Assembly: GCF_029946165.1 (NCBI RefSeq)
Contig: NZ_JAQSDZ010000018.1
Span: 62,001 to 126,000 of the forward strand
DNA from: Methylotenera sp.
Lineage (GTDB): Bacteria > Pseudomonadota > Gammaproteobacteria > Burkholderiales > Methylophilaceae
Length of the DNA: 64,000 nt
Direction of reading: 5' to 3'
Each line of letters opens with the position of its first letter. Position 1 is the first letter of the stretch. Positions 1 through 6,600 of this stretch are shown piece after piece. The position numbers were made by a program, and so were the translations under genes. The notes beneath the pieces are model-generated. The model had not been told where the DNA came from. It did no database searches and was given only the letters and a program-made list of their open reading frames with translations.

Positions 1-1
1 A

Positions 2-265
2 GAAACTTTTGGTGAGGCATGTTCAAAGATTTTATTTTCAAGACTTTCAGACTTGAAAGCAGCTGAAACAATCTACGATGTAGTTGCGGGCAATCCTACT
101 AAAATAAGTAAATCAGAATTTTCAATTGATTTAGATAAAAAGCTAAAATTAATAATTAAAGCTAATCATTCCTCAAATCCACTAACAAATAATACTGAAA
201 TTGATTGGGCGCGGGTTAGCCGAATTAAAATAATAAGCATAACAGAAGGAAACTGCCATGACTGA
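2..265 (+). CDS. HigB/RelE-like toxin, C-terminal part (gene starts before the window)
   Basis: The reading frame is open from base 2 to the TGA at 263-265, so only the C-terminal 87 codons are visible. The visible part resembles the end of HigB-type killer proteins: a segment with paired basic and Leu/Ala residues (RLSDLKAAETIYDV), then a strand and a closing IDWARVSRIKIISI, which in the family usually reads IDWS.VT.I.IIEI followed by a short His/Asp tail. These toxins are ribosome-dependent mRNA interferases (known for the family). The gene overlaps the next start by 8 bp, the usual toxin-before-antitoxin arrangement of higBA. The active-site region and the true start are outside the window, so activity cannot be judged. 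Confidence 0.65.
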   Translation, partial: ETFGEACSKILFSRLSDLKAAETIYDVVAGNPTKISKSEFSIDLDKKLKLIIKANHSSNPLTNNTEIDWARVSRIKIISITEGNCHD

Positions 266-1364
266 AAGTGTTGTATTTAACAATGACTGGATATCTCCGA
301 CTGGGAATACAATTTTAGATATCCTTGAATCAAAAAATATTACCATTAGTGCATTTGCATCTAAAATTGGTTTTAGCATTTCTGAGGCCAACTTATTGAT
401 TCAAAGTGAAGTCGCCTTGACCGATGAATTGGCTGAAATACTTTCTGCAACTATTGGGGCTAGTAAGAGCTTTTGGATAAATAGAGAGTCACAGTTCAGA
501 CAGGATCTCGCTAGACGTCAAGTCGCAAAAATAAACTCAAAAGTAGAATCTGATTGGTTAAAAACTTTACCAATTGATGATTTAGTCATTAAGGGCTGGA
601 TTAGTAATGTAAGCACTACAACAGATAAGATAAGAGCCTGCTTAAAACTTTTTAATGTGGAAAATATTGCTGAATGGACTAAAGCCAGCGAGGAAAAATT
701 AGCTTCATATGCTTTCAAAAAGTCAAATTCTCATAAGCAAGAATTTGGGGCGACTGCAACGTGGCTTATACAAGCAGAAATAATAGCCTCAGAAATAGAA
801 ACAGAAAATTTAGATTTAGAGTTATTTCATAAAAAGTTATCTGACATCAAGGAATTAACTAGAGAGCCAAATCCACAAATTTTTTTACCTAAATTAAGAG
901 AGATTGCTGCTTCTTGTGGAGTAGCGATTGCAGTTGTAAAGACTCCAAAAGGCTGTCGAGCTAGCGGTGCTGCAAAAATAATCAATCCTAACAAAGCAAT
1001 TTTAATCCTTAGTTTCAGATACCTAAGTGATGATCAATTTTGGTTCGCTTTTTTTCATGAGGCTGGCCATTTAATACTTCATGGAAATCAAATAATTTTC
1101 GAGAATGACAATTTATCTGCTCAAGAAACTGAAGCAAATGATTTTGCATATGAAACTTTAATTCCTAAAGAACATCAGGATGAGTTACAAAAAATATCTG
1201 CAAGTCACATAGCAATTATTAGATACTCCAGAAAATTAAATATATCTAGAGGAATAGTTGTAGGTCAACTTCAGAAGAGTGGTAAGTTAAGATTTGGTCA
1301 ATTTAACAACCTTAAAATTAAGTACAATTGGTTTGGTGATTCACCTAACCACGAAATGCAATAA
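258..1364 (+). CDS. HigA-type antitoxin with XRE helix-turn-helix and ImmA/IrrE metallopeptidase domain
   Basis: The 368-residue protein has an N-terminal helix-turn-helix of the HigA/XRE kind (about residues 12-70, with the typical ISAFASKIGFS and LSATIGASKSFWINRE segments). A C-terminal ImmA/IrrE (peptidase M78) domain carries the zinc-binding HEAGH at 267-271 and a following acidic helix TEANDFA near 291. Such proteins repress their own operon and neutralise the partner toxin; in ImmA/IrrE relatives the metallopeptidase cleaves a regulator. The start is ATG 258 with AAGGA upstream, inside the end of the toxin gene, suggesting translational coupling. Its 3' end overlaps the convergent gene by 20 bp. 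Confidence 0.85.
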   Translation: MTESVVFNNDWISPTGNTILDILESKNITISAFASKIGFSISEANLLIQSEVALTDELAEILSATIGASKSFWINRESQFRQDLARRQVAKINSKVESDWLKTLPIDDLVIKGWISNVSTTTDKIRACLKLFNVENIAEWTKASEEKLASYAFKKSNSHKQEFGATATWLIQAEIIASEIETENLDLELFHKKLSDIKELTREPNPQIFLPKLREIAASCGVAIAVVKTPKGCRASGAAKIINPNKAILILSFRYLSDDQFWFAFFHEAGHLILHGNQIIFENDNLSAQETEANDFAYETLIPKEHQDELQKISASHIAIIRYSRKLNISRGIVVGQLQKSGKLRFGQFNNLKIKYNWFGDSPNHEMQ

Positions 1365-2283
1365 AATGACTTGGGCTTTTTTGCCAATTACACATTGAAT
1401 CCTCTAGCACCTGCATTCCAACACCTAAGTACTCATCTAAGCTATTGTTCATTACCTCGAGTTCGCCAGCGCGTAAATTACACAAAACTGAGCCTCCAAA
1501 AAGTAGCTTTGCTCCTCTTAGCGGACCAGTCGCCCCCTTCAAGTAAGTAGAATCAGCTGTAATTGGAACAATATTCAAATTGGACAATGTGGTTAGAAAA
1601 TCAAATTTCCCTGTCCTTGCAAAGGATAGTACTGAACTCATTGAGTTATACATAGCTTGAAATAACTGCTTACTATCGTTACCAACCGAATTATAAAAAA
1701 CCTCTAAAAATGCTTGATGAGATCTTGTTTGCCCAATCCAACTAATATAACTATTAACTACTCTCCATGTAGATCTAGCAGATGTTGGCCTAAGCGTTTC
1801 ATATTTACGATGATTACCAAAATTTCTTGCTACACCATCATTTTTTAAATTGTCATAATTACTTCTAAGCCAATCAGTAAAGTAATTAGGATTTTGACTA
1901 ACCCTTTGCCAGCTCCAACAATATCCTTCACCTAATGCCCAATAAACATCTCTAATCAATTTCCAAGCCGTACGTCCATTCTTTCCAAAATGGGTAGCTA
2001 AAAAAATCAACCAAAATGCCTCATCTAAATTACCAGATTGGGAGTGGTAAACAGCCGCTTTTAATGGATCAAAATCCTCTCTAAACGATGCTTGACTAGC
2101 TGACATAGTCCGGGATTGTATATACTGATAGTATTTAACTCTTCGTATACTATCTATAATTTGAAGCAAAAAAGCGTGTCTATTTTCTTGACTAACTATT
2201 CCCTCCAACAATTGTTTTTCCGCCTCAAAAAGATTAAGAGAATTACTTAATTCTTGATATAAAGGTATATCTCTATTTCTCAT
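1345..2283 (-). CDS. Alpha-glutamyl/putrescinyl-thymine pyrophosphorylase clade 3-like protein
   Basis: 312 residues. I recognise the AGPT-Pplase clade 3 pattern from conserved blocks in order: FDPLKAAVYH (71-80), DEAFWLIFLATHFGKNGRTAW (87-107), RNFGNHRKYE (153-162), SFARTGKFDFL (220-230), YLKGATGPLRGAKLLFGG (247-264) and GVGMQVLEDSMCNWQKSP (287-304). The family has a DNA-glycosylase-like fold and was predicted to attach amino acids or polyamines to hypermodified thymines in phage DNA; clade 3 has no demonstrated activity that I know of. It is the last gene of a four-gene minus-strand operon, its ATG directly abutting the stop of the preceding gene (TAGATG). The neighbouring thymidylate synthase homologue supports a nucleotide or DNA-base role. 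The substrate is unknown. Confidence 0.7.
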   Translation of the reverse strand: MRNRDIPLYQELSNSLNLFEAEKQLLEGIVSQENRHAFLLQIIDSIRRVKYYQYIQSRTMSASQASFREDFDPLKAAVYHSQSGNLDEAFWLIFLATHFGKNGRTAWKLIRDVYWALGEGYCWSWQRVSQNPNYFTDWLRSNYDNLKNDGVARNFGNHRKYETLRPTSARSTWRVVNSYISWIGQTRSHQAFLEVFYNSVGNDSKQLFQAMYNSMSSVLSFARTGKFDFLTTLSNLNIVPITADSTYLKGATGPLRGAKLLFGGSVLCNLRAGELEVMNNSLDEYLGVGMQVLEDSMCNWQKSPSHFIAFRG

Positions 2284-3099
2284 CTATTTGCTTTCTTTAA
2301 ATGATTCAGTAATCCAGTTTTTTATCGACGCCTTAACTTGTGAAGATACTCCAAAGCTACTTTGTAAATTATGATTAAACCCGAGAACAAGTATTTCTCT
2401 ATTTAAGGTTGGGAAGTTGCAGTTGTTAATTTTAGATCTAAACGATACACCATTTACATATTTATTGTTCTTTTGATATAGCGTCCAATCAGACATAGAC
2501 TTAGTTTCATATTGAATATTTGCCAACTTCTGGAAACCATCCACCACACTCTGTCCATTAAGTACGATTAACTTGATGCTAGAGCCGACCAGAACATTCT
2601 CAAGAAATACTTTAGAAAGGCCTAATAGCGAGTTCTTTTTTTCTTTACCGAGCTTTCCCCATTTTTGGTAAGTGGCGTATGGTATCAAATCAAGATGACA
2701 GGCTTTATTTTTATAAAGTGAAAAGCCAGTTCCAGATATTATGTTTTCCATATCTCGAAACCATATATTGTAGGGATTGTTTGAAAAGTAGCTCTCACAA
2801 GAATTTTGTATTAGAGTGAGATGCTCAGATGATGCATCACCCCAATGATTTAAGCCAAGTGAGCTTAGAGTATGAAACCTTCTAGCAATTCCAGAAAGCT
2901 CTCCCCCAAGTGCATCTAAAAATTCTTTATCACTTGGATTTAACCCCATAGTTGCAACAATTGAACTCTTATAGTCTCCAAAAGAAATAATAGGGGATGC
3001 GAATGGAATAATTGATAATTCTTTTACTGACTCATCTGTGAGCTGATATGTTAGCTTCTGGAGCAAACCTTCCCAATTATTTTCATACAAAGAGATCAC
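2284..3099 (-). CDS. Putative uracil-DNA-glycosylase-fold protein of a base-modification operon
   Basis: 271 residues, not assignable to a named family with certainty. The layout recalls the UDG superfamily: a hydrophobic strand followed by GLNPS (52-56, position of the water-activating GQDP/GxNPG motif), a central LDLIPYATYQKWG (136-148), and a strand ending in IVLNGQSVV (178-186). No clear HPSPLS-type motif is visible. In UDGs motif 1 places the catalytic acid; here Ser/Asp (PSD, 55-57) occupy that area. The gene overlaps the upstream thymidylate-synthase-like gene by 17 bp and abuts the downstream AGPT-Pplase-like gene, so the three are probably made together. It could be a glycosylase or a base-recognising transferase; the call is by remote pattern only. 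Confidence 0.45.
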   Translation of the reverse strand: MISLYENNWEGLLQKLTYQLTDESVKELSIIPFASPIISFGDYKSSIVATMGLNPSDKEFLDALGGELSGIARRFHTLSSLGLNHWGDASSEHLTLIQNSCESYFSNNPYNIWFRDMENIISGTGFSLYKNKACHLDLIPYATYQKWGKLGKEKKNSLLGLSKVFLENVLVGSSIKLIVLNGQSVVDGFQKLANIQYETKSMSDWTLYQKNNKYVNGVSFRSKINNCNFPTLNREILVLGFNHNLQSSFGVSSQVKASIKNWITESFKESK

Positions 3100-4072
3100 T
3101 TTGTGTATCTCCTTTTTGTTCTAACTTATCAACTTTCTTCTTCAAATAGGTTAAATAAACATCTGATGACATATTTTTTATATATTTTCGAGCAACCATA
3201 ATACTACCCGCAGTTTTTGTTAGCCTAAATATAATCAGAATCCTAGCAAAATCAGCCCAGTAATTATCAAGCTCATCAAGCACCTTGTCGTCAAAAGGTA
3301 CACCCAGTCTTATGGCTTTTTCAATTTCCAGAAGCTTTTCTATTGAAGTCCAAGGGTTGCCTTCAGGCATTCTAGGCATGGGAACATTTGATTGCCAATC
3401 TTCTGCAATATACTTATGAACGCTTTCAAAATCCGTAGTATATAAATGTAAACTACCTACATAATGTTTATATTGGCCAACTGGAAGTCCTAATGAGCGA
3501 GCCATGATTTCTTGAAACATAGTAAATGCAAAAATATCGTGTGGAAGACCCTTATATGCATCATTTGATCTCATTGTAACGGACAAATGTAGGCGTTCAT
3601 CTCGAATGAGGAACTGGAGTGTGCATGTACATGGGATATCCAGAGAGTTACCAACTAGATCACCAAATCCAAAAACTTGTATAACAGCCTGTCTAGTTGT
3701 TGGTTTCTTACTAAGCAGATTTAAAACTGAAAAAAATTGTCCTTTTCTATCACTCCCAAAAACTCTTGGCCCATACGCTCCATTTAAAGTTTCCCCATCA
3801 TCAGAAAACTTTCGATAGATAGATAAGTAGTACTCTATAAATCCAAGGTCATTAGTACCTGAAAGATACCAAAGCAACTCTCCCAGACAGCTAAATATTG
3901 TACCTTTAATTTCTGTCCGACTTATTCTTGCATTTGGATTGTCAAGTTGAAGAAGTATTCCTGATATTTCATGAGTTTCTCCTTTGGTGGCTTTTATTTT
4001 ACTTCTTGATTTTAATAAAAGTTCAAAAGTTTCCCTCATTAAATCATCTAAAATTTTGGCCTTATTGAACAT
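3083..4072 (-). CDS. Thymidylate synthase homologue, predicted dCMP-type (hydroxy)methylase
   Basis: 329 residues with the thymidylate synthase core: ELLWYLSG (65-72), the catalytic Cys in DIPCTC (Cys148), the phosphate/base-binding MRSNDAYKGLPHDI (Arg168, Asp171) and GSLHLY (His209, Tyr211). Canonical enzymes read GLPFN, where Asn pairs with uracil; here it is GLPHD, Asp179. Asp at this point is the hallmark of T4 dCMP hydroxymethylase and of CMP hydroxymethylase MilA, so a cytosine nucleotide substrate is predicted. The second Arg of the usual RR pair is Gln128 and the His after the Cys is Thr149. It is therefore unlikely to be the host ThyA. It is the second gene of a four-gene operon and overlaps the next gene. 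Confidence 0.8.
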   Translation of the reverse strand: MFNKAKILDDLMRETFELLLKSRSKIKATKGETHEISGILLQLDNPNARISRTEIKGTIFSCLGELLWYLSGTNDLGFIEYYLSIYRKFSDDGETLNGAYGPRVFGSDRKGQFFSVLNLLSKKPTTRQAVIQVFGFGDLVGNSLDIPCTCTLQFLIRDERLHLSVTMRSNDAYKGLPHDIFAFTMFQEIMARSLGLPVGQYKHYVGSLHLYTTDFESVHKYIAEDWQSNVPMPRMPEGNPWTSIEKLLEIEKAIRLGVPFDDKVLDELDNYWADFARILIIFRLTKTAGSIMVARKYIKNMSSDVYLTYLKKKVDKLEQKGDTQSDLFV

Positions 4073-4121
4073 TCATGATGTCTTTATTATTGTGTTCATA
4101 TTGATGGAAACGTAAAATTTA

Positions 4122-4427
4122 CTAAAATAGCATTTCTTGAAATGGCGGAGGCGTCGCAACTCTTGTTTGATCTTGCTCAAATTTAAGAAGCTTAGCGCAT
4201 CTAATAATATCCTTTCTTTCACCTTCTATTGCGCCTAGCTTTAATGCGAAAATGCGAGTTTCAGTTGTGACATCATAATGGGGATAAGATGCATCAGTTT
4301 GAAACCATTCAGGTTTCAAACTAAGGGCTTTTGCAAAAGACTGAAGTTCATCAATTGAATCCGCCACCATATGACACCACTTCCTACCACGCCATTTAAT
4401 TTGAACATTATCAATATATATAGCCAT
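4122..4427 (-). CDS. DUF4031 domain protein
   Basis: 101 residues matching the small DUF4031 family: an N-terminal strand MAIYIDNVQIKW, then CHMVADSIDELQSFA, the conserved WFQTDASYPHYDV (His and Asp likely functional), and a hydrophobic strand-helix end with ALKLGAIE. Function is unknown; as I recall, members are common in phages and other mobile DNA. It is the first gene of the minus-strand module, 49 bp before the thymidylate-synthase-like gene, so probably on the same transcript. A GAGAG ribosome binding site lies shortly before the ATG. The Pro/Phe-rich tail is not part of the conserved domain. Confidence 0.75.
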   Translation of the reverse strand: MAIYIDNVQIKWRGRKWCHMVADSIDELQSFAKALSLKPEWFQTDASYPHYDVTTETRIFALKLGAIEGERKDIIRCAKLLKFEQDQTRVATPPPFQEMLF

Positions 4428-4604
4428 TGATTAACTCTCTTTATTCTTATTCTTAAGTAACTTTAACATATCCATACTTCTAGCCTGCTATATGAGTTCC
4501 AATTCCATTAATTAATATCAAGCATTTTGGCAAGAGCTGCATTATTGATAATTTTACGAAGATCTTGAGTTTAACGGGGAAATTTATTTGCAAAAGATAA
4601 CGTA

Positions 4605-4632
4605 TAGCAGCCTAAAGAATTTAGGCTACTAT
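4605..4632. repeat. Inverted repeat beside tRNA-Lys(CTT)
   Basis: An 8-bp perfect stem (AGCCTAAA 4609-4616, TTTAGGCT 4620-4627, loop GAA) extends outward by ATAG/CTAT after one mismatch. It lies about 60 bp beyond the 3' end of tRNA-Lys(CTT) and may end that transcript, though no clear T-run follows on the minus strand. The surrounding 4428-4688 spacer shows no gene. Confidence 0.5.
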
Positions 4633-4688
4633 GTGGCTACTAGAAAATAAAATGGAAGGCCAATTAAAAGCTAACTTATTGATTTTAT

Positions 4689-4764
4689 TGGTAGGGCGTG
4701 CGAGGATCGAACTCGCGACAAACGGATTAAGAGTCCGCTGCTCTACCAGCTGAGCTAACACCCC
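4689..4764 (-). tRNA. tRNA-Lys (anticodon CTT)
   Basis: The minus strand gives a 76-nt cloverleaf with encoded CCA: acceptor GGGGTGT pairing with ACGCCCT (first pair G-U), D-arm GCTCAGCTGGTAGAGC, anticodon stem GCGGA with loop CTCTTAA (anticodon CTT), and T-arm GCGAG-TTCGATC-CTCGC. It is nearly identical to the tRNA-Lys(TTT) about 140 bp away. Its 3' end faces the A+T-rich accessory segment, the usual orientation for a genomic-island attachment site. Confidence 0.97.
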
Positions 4765-4865
4765 AAATAACTATTAAAACCAGCTGGCATTATACCAAAA
4801 TTAGAAGTTAACTGTTTGCATAAGATATTAATAGCATATCTATTAACAAACCTAATCTGCATAAC

Positions 4866-4896
4866 AAAAAAGCCTAGTCATTTCTGACTAGGCTTT
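4866..4896 (-). terminator. Rho-independent terminator after tRNA-Lys(TTT)
   Basis: On the minus strand a 12-bp perfect stem (AAAGCCTAGTCA / TGACTAGGCTTT) with loop GAAA runs directly into a T-run. It sits just downstream of tRNA-Lys(TTT), so the two tRNA-Lys genes are probably separate transcription units. Confidence 0.85.
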
Positions 4897-4900
4897 GAAT

Positions 4901-4976
4901 TGGTAGGGCGTGCGGGGATCGAACCCACGACAAACGGATTAAAAGTCCGCTGCTCTACCAGCTGAGCTAACGCCCC
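4901..4976 (-). tRNA. tRNA-Lys (anticodon TTT)
   Basis: The minus strand gives a 76-nt cloverleaf with encoded CCA: acceptor GGGGCGT/ACGCCCT, D-arm GCTCAGCTGGTAGAGC, anticodon loop CTTTTAA (anticodon TTT) and a T-arm with TTCGATC. It differs from the neighbouring CTT isoacceptor at only a few positions, consistent with local duplication. An intrinsic terminator follows at once. Confidence 0.97.
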
Positions 4977-5175
4977 ATTGTGAAACTAACTACTTAATGG
5001 GTAATTCTGTGTTTCTGGTATTTCTCAGAGCTACTTTGTTATTAATAAAGCATCACTTACGAAAGGGCGCAATTATGCTAGAAACTTAGTACTTGGTCAA
5101 TGCTAAATTAGCAATTTATGTAAACTTTTTATATTATTAATGAGAACCACGCCATAAACCCCGCCGAATATACGT

Positions 5176-5207
5176 TTAGAGCAAATATCGCATGATATTT
5201 GCTCTAA
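5176..5207. terminator. Perfect 14-bp hairpin 3' of ffh
   Basis: TTAGAGCAAATATC (5176-5189) pairs perfectly with 5194-5207 around a GCAT loop, and outer arms ATACGTT/AACGTAT can pair further. It lies 28 bp beyond the ffh stop codon and is probably its 3'-end hairpin, although no good T-run follows on the minus strand. The rest of the 4977-5235 spacer shows no gene. Confidence 0.45.
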
Positions 5208-5235
5208 TTTCTAACGTATAGTTAACTATTGCTGG

Positions 5236-6600
5236 CTATCGCATGCCGGGCATTTTTCCGCCCATTAAATTTCCCATGCTACGCATCATTTTAGCCATGC
5301 CGCCTTTTGCGAACATTTTCATCATTTTTTGCGTTTCTTCAAACTGTTTGAGCAAACGGTTCACTTCTTGCACTTGCACGCCTGAGCCGTCTGCAATGCG
5401 TTTCTTGCGGGTTGCCTTAATCAGCTCTGGTTTGCGGCGCTCTAGGGGCGTCATGCTGTTAATAATGCCCTCTATGCGGCGAACTGCTTTATCTGCATCG
5501 TCTGGATTCATTTTATTCGCCATACCCGCCATCTGCGCGGGCATTTTATCCATCAGTGCGCCCATGCCACCCATTTTACGCATTTGTGACATTTGAGCCT
5601 TAAAGTCATCCAAATCAAAGTTTTTACCAGATTTAACTTTATCGGCGAGTTTTTGTGCCTCCGCCATGTCGACATTTTTATGCGCTTGTTCAATTAAGCT
5701 CAGCACATCGCCCATGCCCAGTATGCGTGACGCCATACGCTCTGGGTGAAACGGCTCTAGTCCATCTACCTTTTCACTTACACCGACAAATTTAATTGGC
5801 TTGCCCGTTATGTGGCGTACAGATAAAGCAGCACCGCCGCGTGAGTCACCATCCAACTTGGTGAGTATGACACCCGTCAGCGGCAATGTGTCGCCAAAGG
5901 CTTTAGCAGTATTGACGGCATCTTGACCCTGCATGGCATCGACCACAAACAGCGTTTCAATCGGGTTAAGTAATGTGTGTAGCGCTTTAATTTCCGCCAT
6001 CATGGCTTCATCAATACCTAAGCGACCTGCGGTATCGAAAATAATGACATCGTAATATCCGCGCTTAGCGAAATCTAAGGCCGCGGTAGCAATATCTGCT
6101 GGCTTTTGAGTGGCATTGCTGTCAAAGCAATCAACCTCTAATTGCTTGGCCAACGTTTTAAGCTGCTCTATCGCAGCTGGGCGGTATACGTCAGCACTGG
6201 CAAGTAGCACTTTCTTTTTTTGCTCTTTTAGTAATTTTGCAAGCTTGGCTGAAGTGGTAGTTTTACCTGAGCCTTGCAAACCAGCCATCAAAATAATTGC
6301 TGGGGCAACCACTGCTAGATTCAAGCCTACATTTGCCTTACCCATTAACTCAGTAAGTTCGTCATGTACTACCTGAATAACTGCCTGCCCTGGCGTTAGA
6401 CTTTGCAATACCTCTTGACCCTGCGCGCGTAGTTTAACTTGTGCAATAAACTCTTTAACCACAGGCAAGGCAACATCGGCCTCGAGCAGCGCCATACGCA
6501 CTTCACGCATCGCGTCGGTGATGTTTTCTTCTGTGAGCCTAGCTTGACCACGTAAATTTTTGATGACGCCCTGTAGGCGGTCGGTTAGATTTTCTAGCAT
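5236..6600 (-). CDS. ffh: Signal recognition particle protein Ffh
   Basis: 454 residues, normal length. It has the N-terminal helical bundle, a GTPase NG domain with P-loop GLQGSGKTTT (107-116), DTAGR and TKLD motifs, and a Met-rich C-terminal M domain (many GGM/KMM motifs) that binds signal peptides and 4.5S RNA. It works in the cytoplasm with FtsY to deliver inner-membrane proteins to SecYEG. It is divergent from the cytochrome c assembly gene, with an 81-bp spacer holding both promoters. ATG start. Confidence 0.98.
   Translation of the reverse strand: MLENLTDRLQGVIKNLRGQARLTEENITDAMREVRMALLEADVALPVVKEFIAQVKLRAQGQEVLQSLTPGQAVIQVVHDELTELMGKANVGLNLAVVAPAIILMAGLQGSGKTTTSAKLAKLLKEQKKKVLLASADVYRPAAIEQLKTLAKQLEVDCFDSNATQKPADIATAALDFAKRGYYDVIIFDTAGRLGIDEAMMAEIKALHTLLNPIETLFVVDAMQGQDAVNTAKAFGDTLPLTGVILTKLDGDSRGGAALSVRHITGKPIKFVGVSEKVDGLEPFHPERMASRILGMGDVLSLIEQAHKNVDMAEAQKLADKVKSGKNFDLDDFKAQMSQMRKMGGMGALMDKMPAQMAGMANKMNPDDADKAVRRIEGIINSMTPLERRKPELIKATRKKRIADGSGVQVQEVNRLLKQFEETQKMMKMFAKGGMAKMMRSMGNLMGGKMPGMR

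Follow-up and report, generated by a model that had tools for sequence, protein, structure and literature searches.

A four-gene core found in the window (the whole stretch of Methylotenera sp. DNA analysed, 64,000 nucleotides in length) may represent one mobile two-arm system, probably anti-phage, in which cytosine hypermodification would be joined to an abortive protease toxin; we give equal weight to this reading and to its contrary. The core comprises a thymidylate synthase (TS)-like protein, an aGPT-Pplase clade 3 protein (aGPT3), an ImmA/IrrE protein and a HigB-fold partner, covers about 3.4 kb and was complete in 89 of 98 distinct loci. The pairing of these genes in nearly all sampled relatives suggests, at the level of sequence, a single two-part and probably anti-phage system.

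Organisation of the locus

The sequence-only reading had described a modification-like operon of four genes (DUF4031, TS-like, UDG-like and aGPT-Pplase clade 3) in an accessory segment. The existence and placement of these genes were confirmed, and they turned out to be part of a bigger unit. The features are as follows (window coordinates; C18 is the contig):

1..265, plus strand: HigB-fold small protein, 110 aa; residues 24-110 lie inside the window and the whole gene is C18:61933-62265
258..1364, plus strand: ImmA/IrrE protein, 368 aa, with the HEAGH zinc-peptidase motif (PF06114 5.8e-10)
1345..1364: 20 bp shared tail-to-tail by the ImmA and aGPT genes, from the ORF coordinates
1345..2283, minus strand: aGPT-Pplase clade 3 / amino acid:DNA transferase-like protein, 312 aa (PF18746 1.1e-102, PF18724 5.5e-70)
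2284..3099, minus strand: optional UDG-fold protein (predicted fold) of 271 aa, with GTG as start codon
3083..4072, minus strand: TS-like predicted dCMP 5-hydroxymethylase, 329 aa (C148, T149, S169, D179, R127; MilA is the best PDB match)
4122..4427, minus strand: DUF4031 protein of 101 aa, the first gene where present (PF13223 1.1e-22)
4687..4734: attR, 48 bp, within the 3' part of tRNA-Lys and repeating attL (C18:57584-57631) perfectly in direct orientation
4689-4764: tRNA-Lys(CTT)

Promoter-like and terminator-like sites were not more frequent than in shuffled sequence. The four genes sit on a 9.1-kb integrated element, flanked by the perfect 48-bp attachment repeats and carrying an integrase (PF00589 1.9e-16). 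In the relative G539 the site is unoccupied: the tRNA-Lys and the right flank are uninterrupted and left-flank sequence is found 78 bp beyond, the approximately 1.07 kb adjoining attL being absent too. The element is thus site-specific, integrative and satellite-like, as integrase, direct att repeats and an unoccupied site in a relative are all present. No structural phage genes were recognised between the att sites, where a 225-aa protein and the HigB-like protein have no Pfam match. The Pfam matches and the predicted UDG fold support a base- or nucleotide-modification-like operon, and the repeats and the unoccupied site support its placing in an accessory mobile segment.

Conserved core and distribution

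Loci were collected through their resemblance to aGPT, with the 80 best of 209 matches in genome contigs retained, and remote aGPT3 proteins could therefore differ. In 95 of 96 loci the aGPT and ImmA operons run towards each other, with a median distance of 1 bp between stops; the stop-to-stop gap lies within ±50 bp in 88 of the 95 convergent loci and the coding regions overlap in 41. In one outlier, G074, the initial 10 kb of the contig contain no TS and no ImmA. As to the four genes first seen as one set, the TS-like and aGPT genes are constant, whereas the UDG-like gene (32/98 loci, none seen in the other 66) and DUF4031 (27/98 by examination of locus DNA, window included) are optional. The toxin-antitoxin pair had been seen as standing beside the operon; the adjacency holds, but the pair is not a mere neighbour, given the core of four and its convergent order.

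In a phylogenetic tree of ImmA proteins (91 aGPT-linked and 54 aGPT-free rows), the aGPT-linked ones form one clade (SH-aLRT 100), and distances correlate, which is correlated divergence. The pairing has one origin within the sample. That the toxin-antitoxin and modification genes are neighbours by chance was rejected on account of the conserved gene order and the single ImmA clade.

Flanking ORFs were collected mechanically (333), and further partners were sought in 150 of the 162 that lay nearest and did not exceed 700 aa; these matched 101 Pfam and 289 PADLOC families, the 25 commonest being listed. No constant fifth partner outside the core was seen among these 150 proteins and 25 families; the most often matched families are not constant, with at most 4/150 proteins each. 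None of the 289 PADLOC families was matched by more than three proteins, a raw tally of families and not of distinct proteins, which speaks neither for nor against a defence-island context. HTH_3 was matched in 3/150. Across the loci, neither a separate repressor gene nor a nucleotide kinase was seen as a constant part of the unit.

Going by record titles, the sampled loci belong to Pseudomonadota, Acidobacteriota, Bacteroidota, Chloroflexota, Planctomycetota and Myxococcota, with one Verrucomicrobiota locus whose sequence ends before ImmA; further occurrences are on Leptospira and Arthrobacter plasmids. The set is carried on an integrated element, plasmids and IMG/VR contigs; it is widely spread among phyla but rare within each (4/398 genomes of the phylum). 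No aGPT3 was found in phage records, and a search of E. coli by DNA similarity, which diverged copies could escape, gave no match.

The modification arm

The TS-like protein has MilA CMP 5-hydroxymethylase as its best PDB match (1.1e-43), the best thymidylate synthase scoring 2.2e-22. Across the system proteins, C148 is kept in 95/95, D179 in 94/95, S169 in 95/95 and R127 in 91/94 (Lys in three); the sole protein without Asp at position 179 is that of L033, whose TS is split over two ORFs. The host ThyA has Asn where the system protein has Asp, and an Asn-bearing, uracil-type TS-family hydroxymethylase was not found at the locus. The TS-like protein carries the catalytic Cys, the cytosine Asp and the deoxy-type Ser and Arg of a dCMP hydroxymethylase, and these residues point to a cytosine nucleotide as substrate, not thymine or uracil. 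The conserved Asp is shared with MilA and with T4 dCMP hydroxymethylase. However, Ser and mostly Arg replace Ala176 and Lys133 of MilA, so that dCMP rather than CMP is the predicted substrate, and the protein belongs to a bacterial toxin-linked operon instead of an antibiotic cluster or a lytic phage. Phages with a 5hmdC carbamoyltransferase (PMC8670742) also combine a dCMP-type TS with a transferase decorating 5hmdC; their transferase is a carbamoyltransferase and not aGPT, and they come from metagenomic contigs of phages rather than from a toxin-linked element.

The aGPT protein matches aGPT-Pplase clade 3 (PF18746) with 343.7 bits against a cut-off of 25, residues 34-312 aligning with profile positions 2-279, and also the ADDT family (PF18724) with 236.1 bits against 26.2. 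Thymine hypermodification in phages is carried out by aGPT-Pplase/ADDT proteins together with a dUMP hydroxymethylase and a 5-hmdU DNA kinase, and the known ADDT chemistry uses the pyrophosphate made by the kinase. The locus has in common with that pathway an aGPT-Pplase/ADDT-family protein and a TS-family hydroxymethylase. On the other hand, the window TS-like protein bears the Asp/Thr cytosine signature, whereas that of phage M6 reads Asn near this place (by eye), and the kinase (HMUDK, PF18723), matched in phage M6 as positive control (1.4e-57), gave no match in the genome of the window. The reaction of aGPT3 is uncertain because this kinase was not found there. In 14 further aGPT3 genomes or records, seven of them plasmid records without chromosomes, PF18723 gave one match, in G587, outside its 14.9-kb aGPT locus. 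The aGPT profile had no match in 50,000 bases of phage M6. Owing to the Asp/Thr signature and the lack of an HMUDK match, a thymine product is not favoured.

Profile searches agreed with the families first assigned to the aGPT and DUF4031 proteins. For the UDG-like protein, 30 homologues gave no Pfam match to a UDG family at E values of 0.1 or below, and the best PDB sequence match was a glutathione S-transferase (E 0.18). The call from sequence was dropped and the fold had to be predicted, the model giving the 271-aa protein a UDG fold. A single-sequence search found no UDG-like protein in viral contigs; the viral loci reached through aGPT (L097-L099 and L101) do carry one.

The toxin arm and related systems

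ImmA/IrrE proteins are stress sensors that often cleave repressors, as ImmA does with ImmR in ICEBs1. In the window protein the N-terminal part resembles, by eye, an HTH of the HigA/Xre type, although Pfam matched no HTH family there, and residues 91-352 match PADLOC PD-Lambda-2_B (PDLC03982, 5.2e-23). The HExxH motif is kept in 95 of 96 members, and several plasmid relatives are annotated as 'HigA family addiction module antitoxin'. The 110-aa partner had no HigB match by profile or sequence similarity; an AF2 model gave it a HigB fold. The 54 aGPT-free rows of the tree are HigB-ImmA pairs too; in general, then, the toxin arm can do without the mark.

PD-lambda-2, which came from a functional selection in E. 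coli, consists of a HigB-like A, an Xre-peptidase B and a P4-antitoxin-like C; toxicity lies in the peptidase component, and C is needed for defence. As in PD-lambda-2, the gene with the predicted HigB fold, a candidate counterpart of component A, stands immediately upstream of the ImmA/IrrE gene and overlaps it, and the ImmA protein matches component B (its HTH part by eye). By analogy, the ImmA/IrrE protein is presumed to be the toxic effector. In contrast to PD-lambda-2, no constant third gene was seen beside the core in locus and flank scans, the pair stands tail-to-tail with TS and aGPT3, and its ImmA forms a clade apart from the sampled aGPT-free proteins. Besides, DefensePredictor (PMC13092281, Fig. 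6F) lists aGPT-Pplase as a predicted, unvalidated defence domain, with HTH and UDG among the abbreviations of the legend, and its validated systems include ones with a 5hmdU kinase or thymidylate synthase. This aGPT-Pplase system may be identical to that of the window, as far as the legend and main text tell; the latter has no occurrence of 'ImmA', and the passages considered mention neither a convergent HigB/ImmA arm nor a cytosine signature, and earlier neighbourhood accounts may exist elsewhere.

Proposed mechanism and alternatives

According to its residues, the TS-like enzyme would put a hydroxymethyl group on dCMP, and aGPT3, judging from its family, would replace or cap it with an amine (amino acid or polyamine) at nucleotide or DNA level; where present, the UDG-fold protein could excise or proofread the modified base. 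The HTH-ImmA/IrrE zinc protease would be the toxic part, as in PD-lambda-2, presumably kept in check by the HigB-fold partner. The cytosine-derived mark would act as a 'self' or 'undisturbed' signal, and its destruction or dilution by infection would free the protease and arrest growth before phage production. That a hypermodified deoxycytidine self-signal is read by the protease toxin, making a new immunity class of modification-gated proteolytic abortive systems, is doubtful; such a system would have a logic like that of restriction-modification, with a protease in place of the nuclease.

The mark might not have to be in DNA. TS-like and aGPT3 could produce an aminated hydroxymethyl-dCMP as free nucleotide, a ligand activating ImmA when phage replication raises dCMP, which is possible if rather improbable. 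Incorporation into DNA is indeed not assured, because the constant genes include no nucleotide kinase and the genome no HMUDK; most loci (66/98) show no UDG-fold gene acting on DNA, and stress sensing is a known role of ImmA/IrrE proteins. However, aGPT3 also matches ADDT, a family DNA-acting by name, and the UDG-fold partner of the remaining loci gives a hint that the modified base is in DNA.

The two arms could also be linked through mobile DNA alone, HigB-ImmA being an addiction module while the modification shields element or plasmid DNA from host restriction. The carriage on an integrated element, plasmids and IMG/VR contigs and the HigB-ImmA pairs without aGPT agree with this; yet co-residence leaves unexplained the fixed tail-to-tail order across phyla and the one ImmA clade, and the commonest flanking families are not constant. 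We regard this reading as unlikely. Even less probable is that ImmA-HigB is mainly a regulator, its HTH-peptidase repressing or de-repressing the modification operon, with the modification arm as effector by way of a toxic nucleotide or a lesion in phage DNA. Repressor cleavage is common in the family and the convergent overlap could couple both transcripts, but in PD-lambda-2, the nearest tested relative, toxicity is in the peptidase component itself, and the unit has no constant separate repressor gene in the scans.

Implications

We know of no cell with cytosine hypermodification of the kind proposed, and aGPT/ADDT chemistry has so far, to our knowledge, been tied to thymine. If the two-arm reading is true, a cytosine branch would be added to this chemistry, the scattered aGPT-Pplase3 genes would gain a partner and a purpose, and the clonable core would offer a tractable case of nucleotide or DNA modification coupled to a proteolytic toxin-antitoxin module.

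The mobile element and its insertion site

The segment carrying the gene set is a delimited mobile element in a genome of 2.94 Mb. The window starts within its contig (C18), and the stretch of C18 reaching upstream of it (L003) holds the first four of the following features:

Upstream of the window: tyrosine integrase (PF00589, 1.9e-16)
Upstream of the window: 225-aa protein, no assignment
Upstream of the window: HTH_17 protein
Upstream of the window: phage GPA replication protein (PF05840, 6.7e-85)
1..265 (+): HigB-like protein, HigB-fold partner of ImmA
258..1364 (+): ImmA/IrrE zinc-peptidase protein (ImmA), presumed toxic effector
1345..2283 (-): aGPT-Pplase3
2284..3099 (-): UDG-like protein (optional)
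3083..4072 (-): TS-like enzyme
4122..4427 (-): DUF4031 protein (optional)

A perfect direct repeat of 48 bp is found at C18:57584-57631 (attL) and at 4687-4734 of the window (attR), 9,103 bp apart, the latter copy being within the 3' part of tRNA-Lys(CTT). In G539, a related genome, no interruption is seen across the tRNA-Lys pair and right flank, and the left flank (to C18:56507) picks up 78 bp past the att copy; the element is therefore absent there. The G+C content is 37.4% in the element and 41.7% and 42.4% in its surroundings. The sequence-only reading had described an accessory segment with no visible phage, which agrees with the integrase, the att repeats and the empty site in G539; from one repeat to the other, no gene for a phage structural protein was recognised. 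Another ~1.07 kb directly outside attL is also absent at the G539 site and may be a separate insertion; the gene located there (C18:56795-57511, L003:10795-11511) has a C-terminus resembling that of PEP-CTERM proteins.

In genome G554, a different stretch of ~9 kb (L249:3105-12178, G554:C1:2577104-2586177) lies between the neighbouring tRNA-Lys and a 48-bp copy of its end, and contains its own integrase-like ORF (L249:11042-12103) and, by eye, a possible NTPase (4354-5682). This points to the tRNA-Lys pair as a hotspot of integration within the genus.

Distribution and gene content

aGPT-Pplase3 is scarce: with the window's own genome included, 4 genomes out of 398 in the phylum and 1 out of 187 in the family carry it, as do 8 plasmid records; none of 50,697 phage records does. 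Loci were collected from assembled genome contigs (best 80 of 209 relatives), viral contigs (27 relatives giving 26 loci, plus one from another search), plasmids (7 regions standing for the 8 records) and genome searches; clustering at 90% identity reduced the 118 loci with aGPT to 98, whose genes were named with profiles built from those same loci. The record title gives the phylum for 74 of them: Pseudomonadota (56), Acidobacteriota (8), Bacteroidota (5), Chloroflexota (2), and Verrucomicrobiota, Planctomycetota and Myxococcota with one locus each. The 24 without a phylum by title include one Leptospira and one Arthrobacter plasmid. In the Leptospira plasmid, aGPT (L012:6947-7880) is split into two ORFs next to seemingly intact neighbours, which may reflect either decay of this copy or an error in sequencing.

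The actual unit exceeds the set of DUF4031, TS-like, UDG-like and AGPT genes proposed from the sequence. Tabulation of the 98 neighbourhoods, window counted, upheld the TS-like gene beside aGPT (95 loci), but UDG-like (32) and DUF4031 (27) are present only in a minority. The toxin-antitoxin pair, which had been placed beside the set, is indeed adjacent but belongs to the unit: ImmA is present in 96 loci, HigB-like in 91, and the full core (aGPT, TS-like, ImmA and HigB-like) in 89. Five of the nine remaining loci are at the edge of the available sequence (L027, L064, L081, L101, L122); as for the rest, L030 (Chryseolinea) has no TS by the profile test, two Rhizobiaceae plasmids (L015, L016) have no HigB-like ORF, and L008 (genome G074) has aGPT alone, of divergent sequence. 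This lone aGPT-Pplase3 (L234:1651-2559) shares 29% identity with that of the window, and neither TS-like nor ImmA nor HigB-like accompanies it over the initial 10 kb of the contig; clade 3 thus extends beyond the system.

Of 333 flanking ORFs collected, 162 were nearest to the core and 150 were scanned. No constant neighbour was found among these 150 proteins, some of which are mobile or defence genes (4 integrases, and matches to type II and III methyltransferases, SIR2 and AbiEii).

Convergent layout and co-evolution

Of the 96 loci having both aGPT and ImmA, 95 have them in convergent orientation; the sole exception is L043 (Sorangium), where HigB-ImmA and aGPT point the same way. The median stop-to-stop distance is 1 bp; it is at most 50 bp in 88 of the 95 loci, and the genes overlap in 41. 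In the 82 loci where all four core genes are nearly full-length, pairwise distances are correlated for aGPT-ImmA (0.761), TS-ImmA (0.684), aGPT-TS (0.667), ImmA-HigB (0.549), aGPT-HigB (0.499) and TS-HigB (0.468), values reached in 0 of 2000 permutations for each of the six pairs and to which shared species history may contribute.

HigB-ImmA pairs without aGPT do occur. A quick tree was built with 145 ImmA proteins (164 before near copies were dropped), 91 aGPT-linked and 54 aGPT-free; the window's ImmA is unusual in composition and sits on a long branch in it. A branch with an SH-aLRT of 100 separates the aGPT-linked proteins from the aGPT-free ones, and only one change is needed; thus, within the sample, the pairing arose once and has been retained since. 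The aGPT-free proteins were drawn from 80 viral-contig relatives (the best among 103) and from loci, each with ~1.5 kb of flank, kept from the search of 398 phylum genomes; an aGPT-free protein belonging to the linked clade could therefore exist outside this sample. Four loci (L206-L209) encode proteins related to the system's ImmA (443-446 bits) with no aGPT or TS within the ~1.5 kb flank; in L206 and L208 a long ORF (483 and 525 aa, respectively) follows on the same strand.

The putative modification arm

The nearest PDB entry to the TS-like enzyme is MilA, a CMP 5-hydroxymethylase (1.1e-43), the best thymidylate synthase being at 2.2e-22. According to PMC5175136, the residue at MilA position 186 is Asp in cytosine enzymes and Asn in uracil enzymes, and Lys133/Ala176 mark ribose-preferring enzymes whereas Arg/Ser mark deoxyribose ones. 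In PMC8670742, the two positions ranked highest for telling the TS proteins encoded on modified-cytosine contigs apart from other TS proteins are 177 and 147 in E. coli numbering. The nucleophile Cys, the Ser and a Thr at the 147-equivalent are present in all 95 TS-like proteins, and Asp at the 177-equivalent in 94 (exception L033); the host ThyA has Asn and His at the 177- and 147-equivalents. Although MilA is the closest PDB relative, the TS-like proteins have the deoxy-type Ser in place of Ala176 and mostly Arg in place of Lys133; among the 94 proteins that have a residue at the latter position, it is Arg in 91 and Lys in 3. The predicted reaction is the conversion of dCMP to 5-hydroxymethyl-dCMP.

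The analogy with hypermodified thymines drawn in the sequence-only reading is at odds with these cytosine-type residues and with the search for the kinase of the thymine pathway (HMUDK, PF18723), which has no match in the window's genome. Across 15 genomes or records, the kinase is present in phage M6, which served as positive control, and in a single genome of Paraburkholderia, where it lies away from the aGPT locus. The remaining 13 gave no match; seven of these are plasmid records that do not include the host chromosome. The Paraburkholderia protein (L252, G587:C1:2099901-2100737), a strong HMUDK_hel match (2.9e-113) in the genome carrying the aGPT/ImmA locus L047, may be part of another modification system. 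As the kinase was not found, aGPT3 would here use either a different activated group or a nucleotide as substrate.

Proposed function

An aGPT-Pplase system is listed by DefensePredictor (PMC13092281) as a predicted, unvalidated defence, and validated systems reported in that work include thymidylate synthase or 5hmdU kinase domains. The portions of the literature searched gave no description of a coupled TS/aGPT and HigB/ImmA system.

Two functionally joined arms are well supported by the gene layout, and the cytosine chemistry of the modification arm is supported by the TS-like residues. The defence role, and above all the sign of the signal between mark and toxin, is an inference. We favour a two-arm defence as the probable mode of action: a mark derived from cytosine would hold the ImmA toxin silent, and infection would lead to loss of the mark and release of the toxin.
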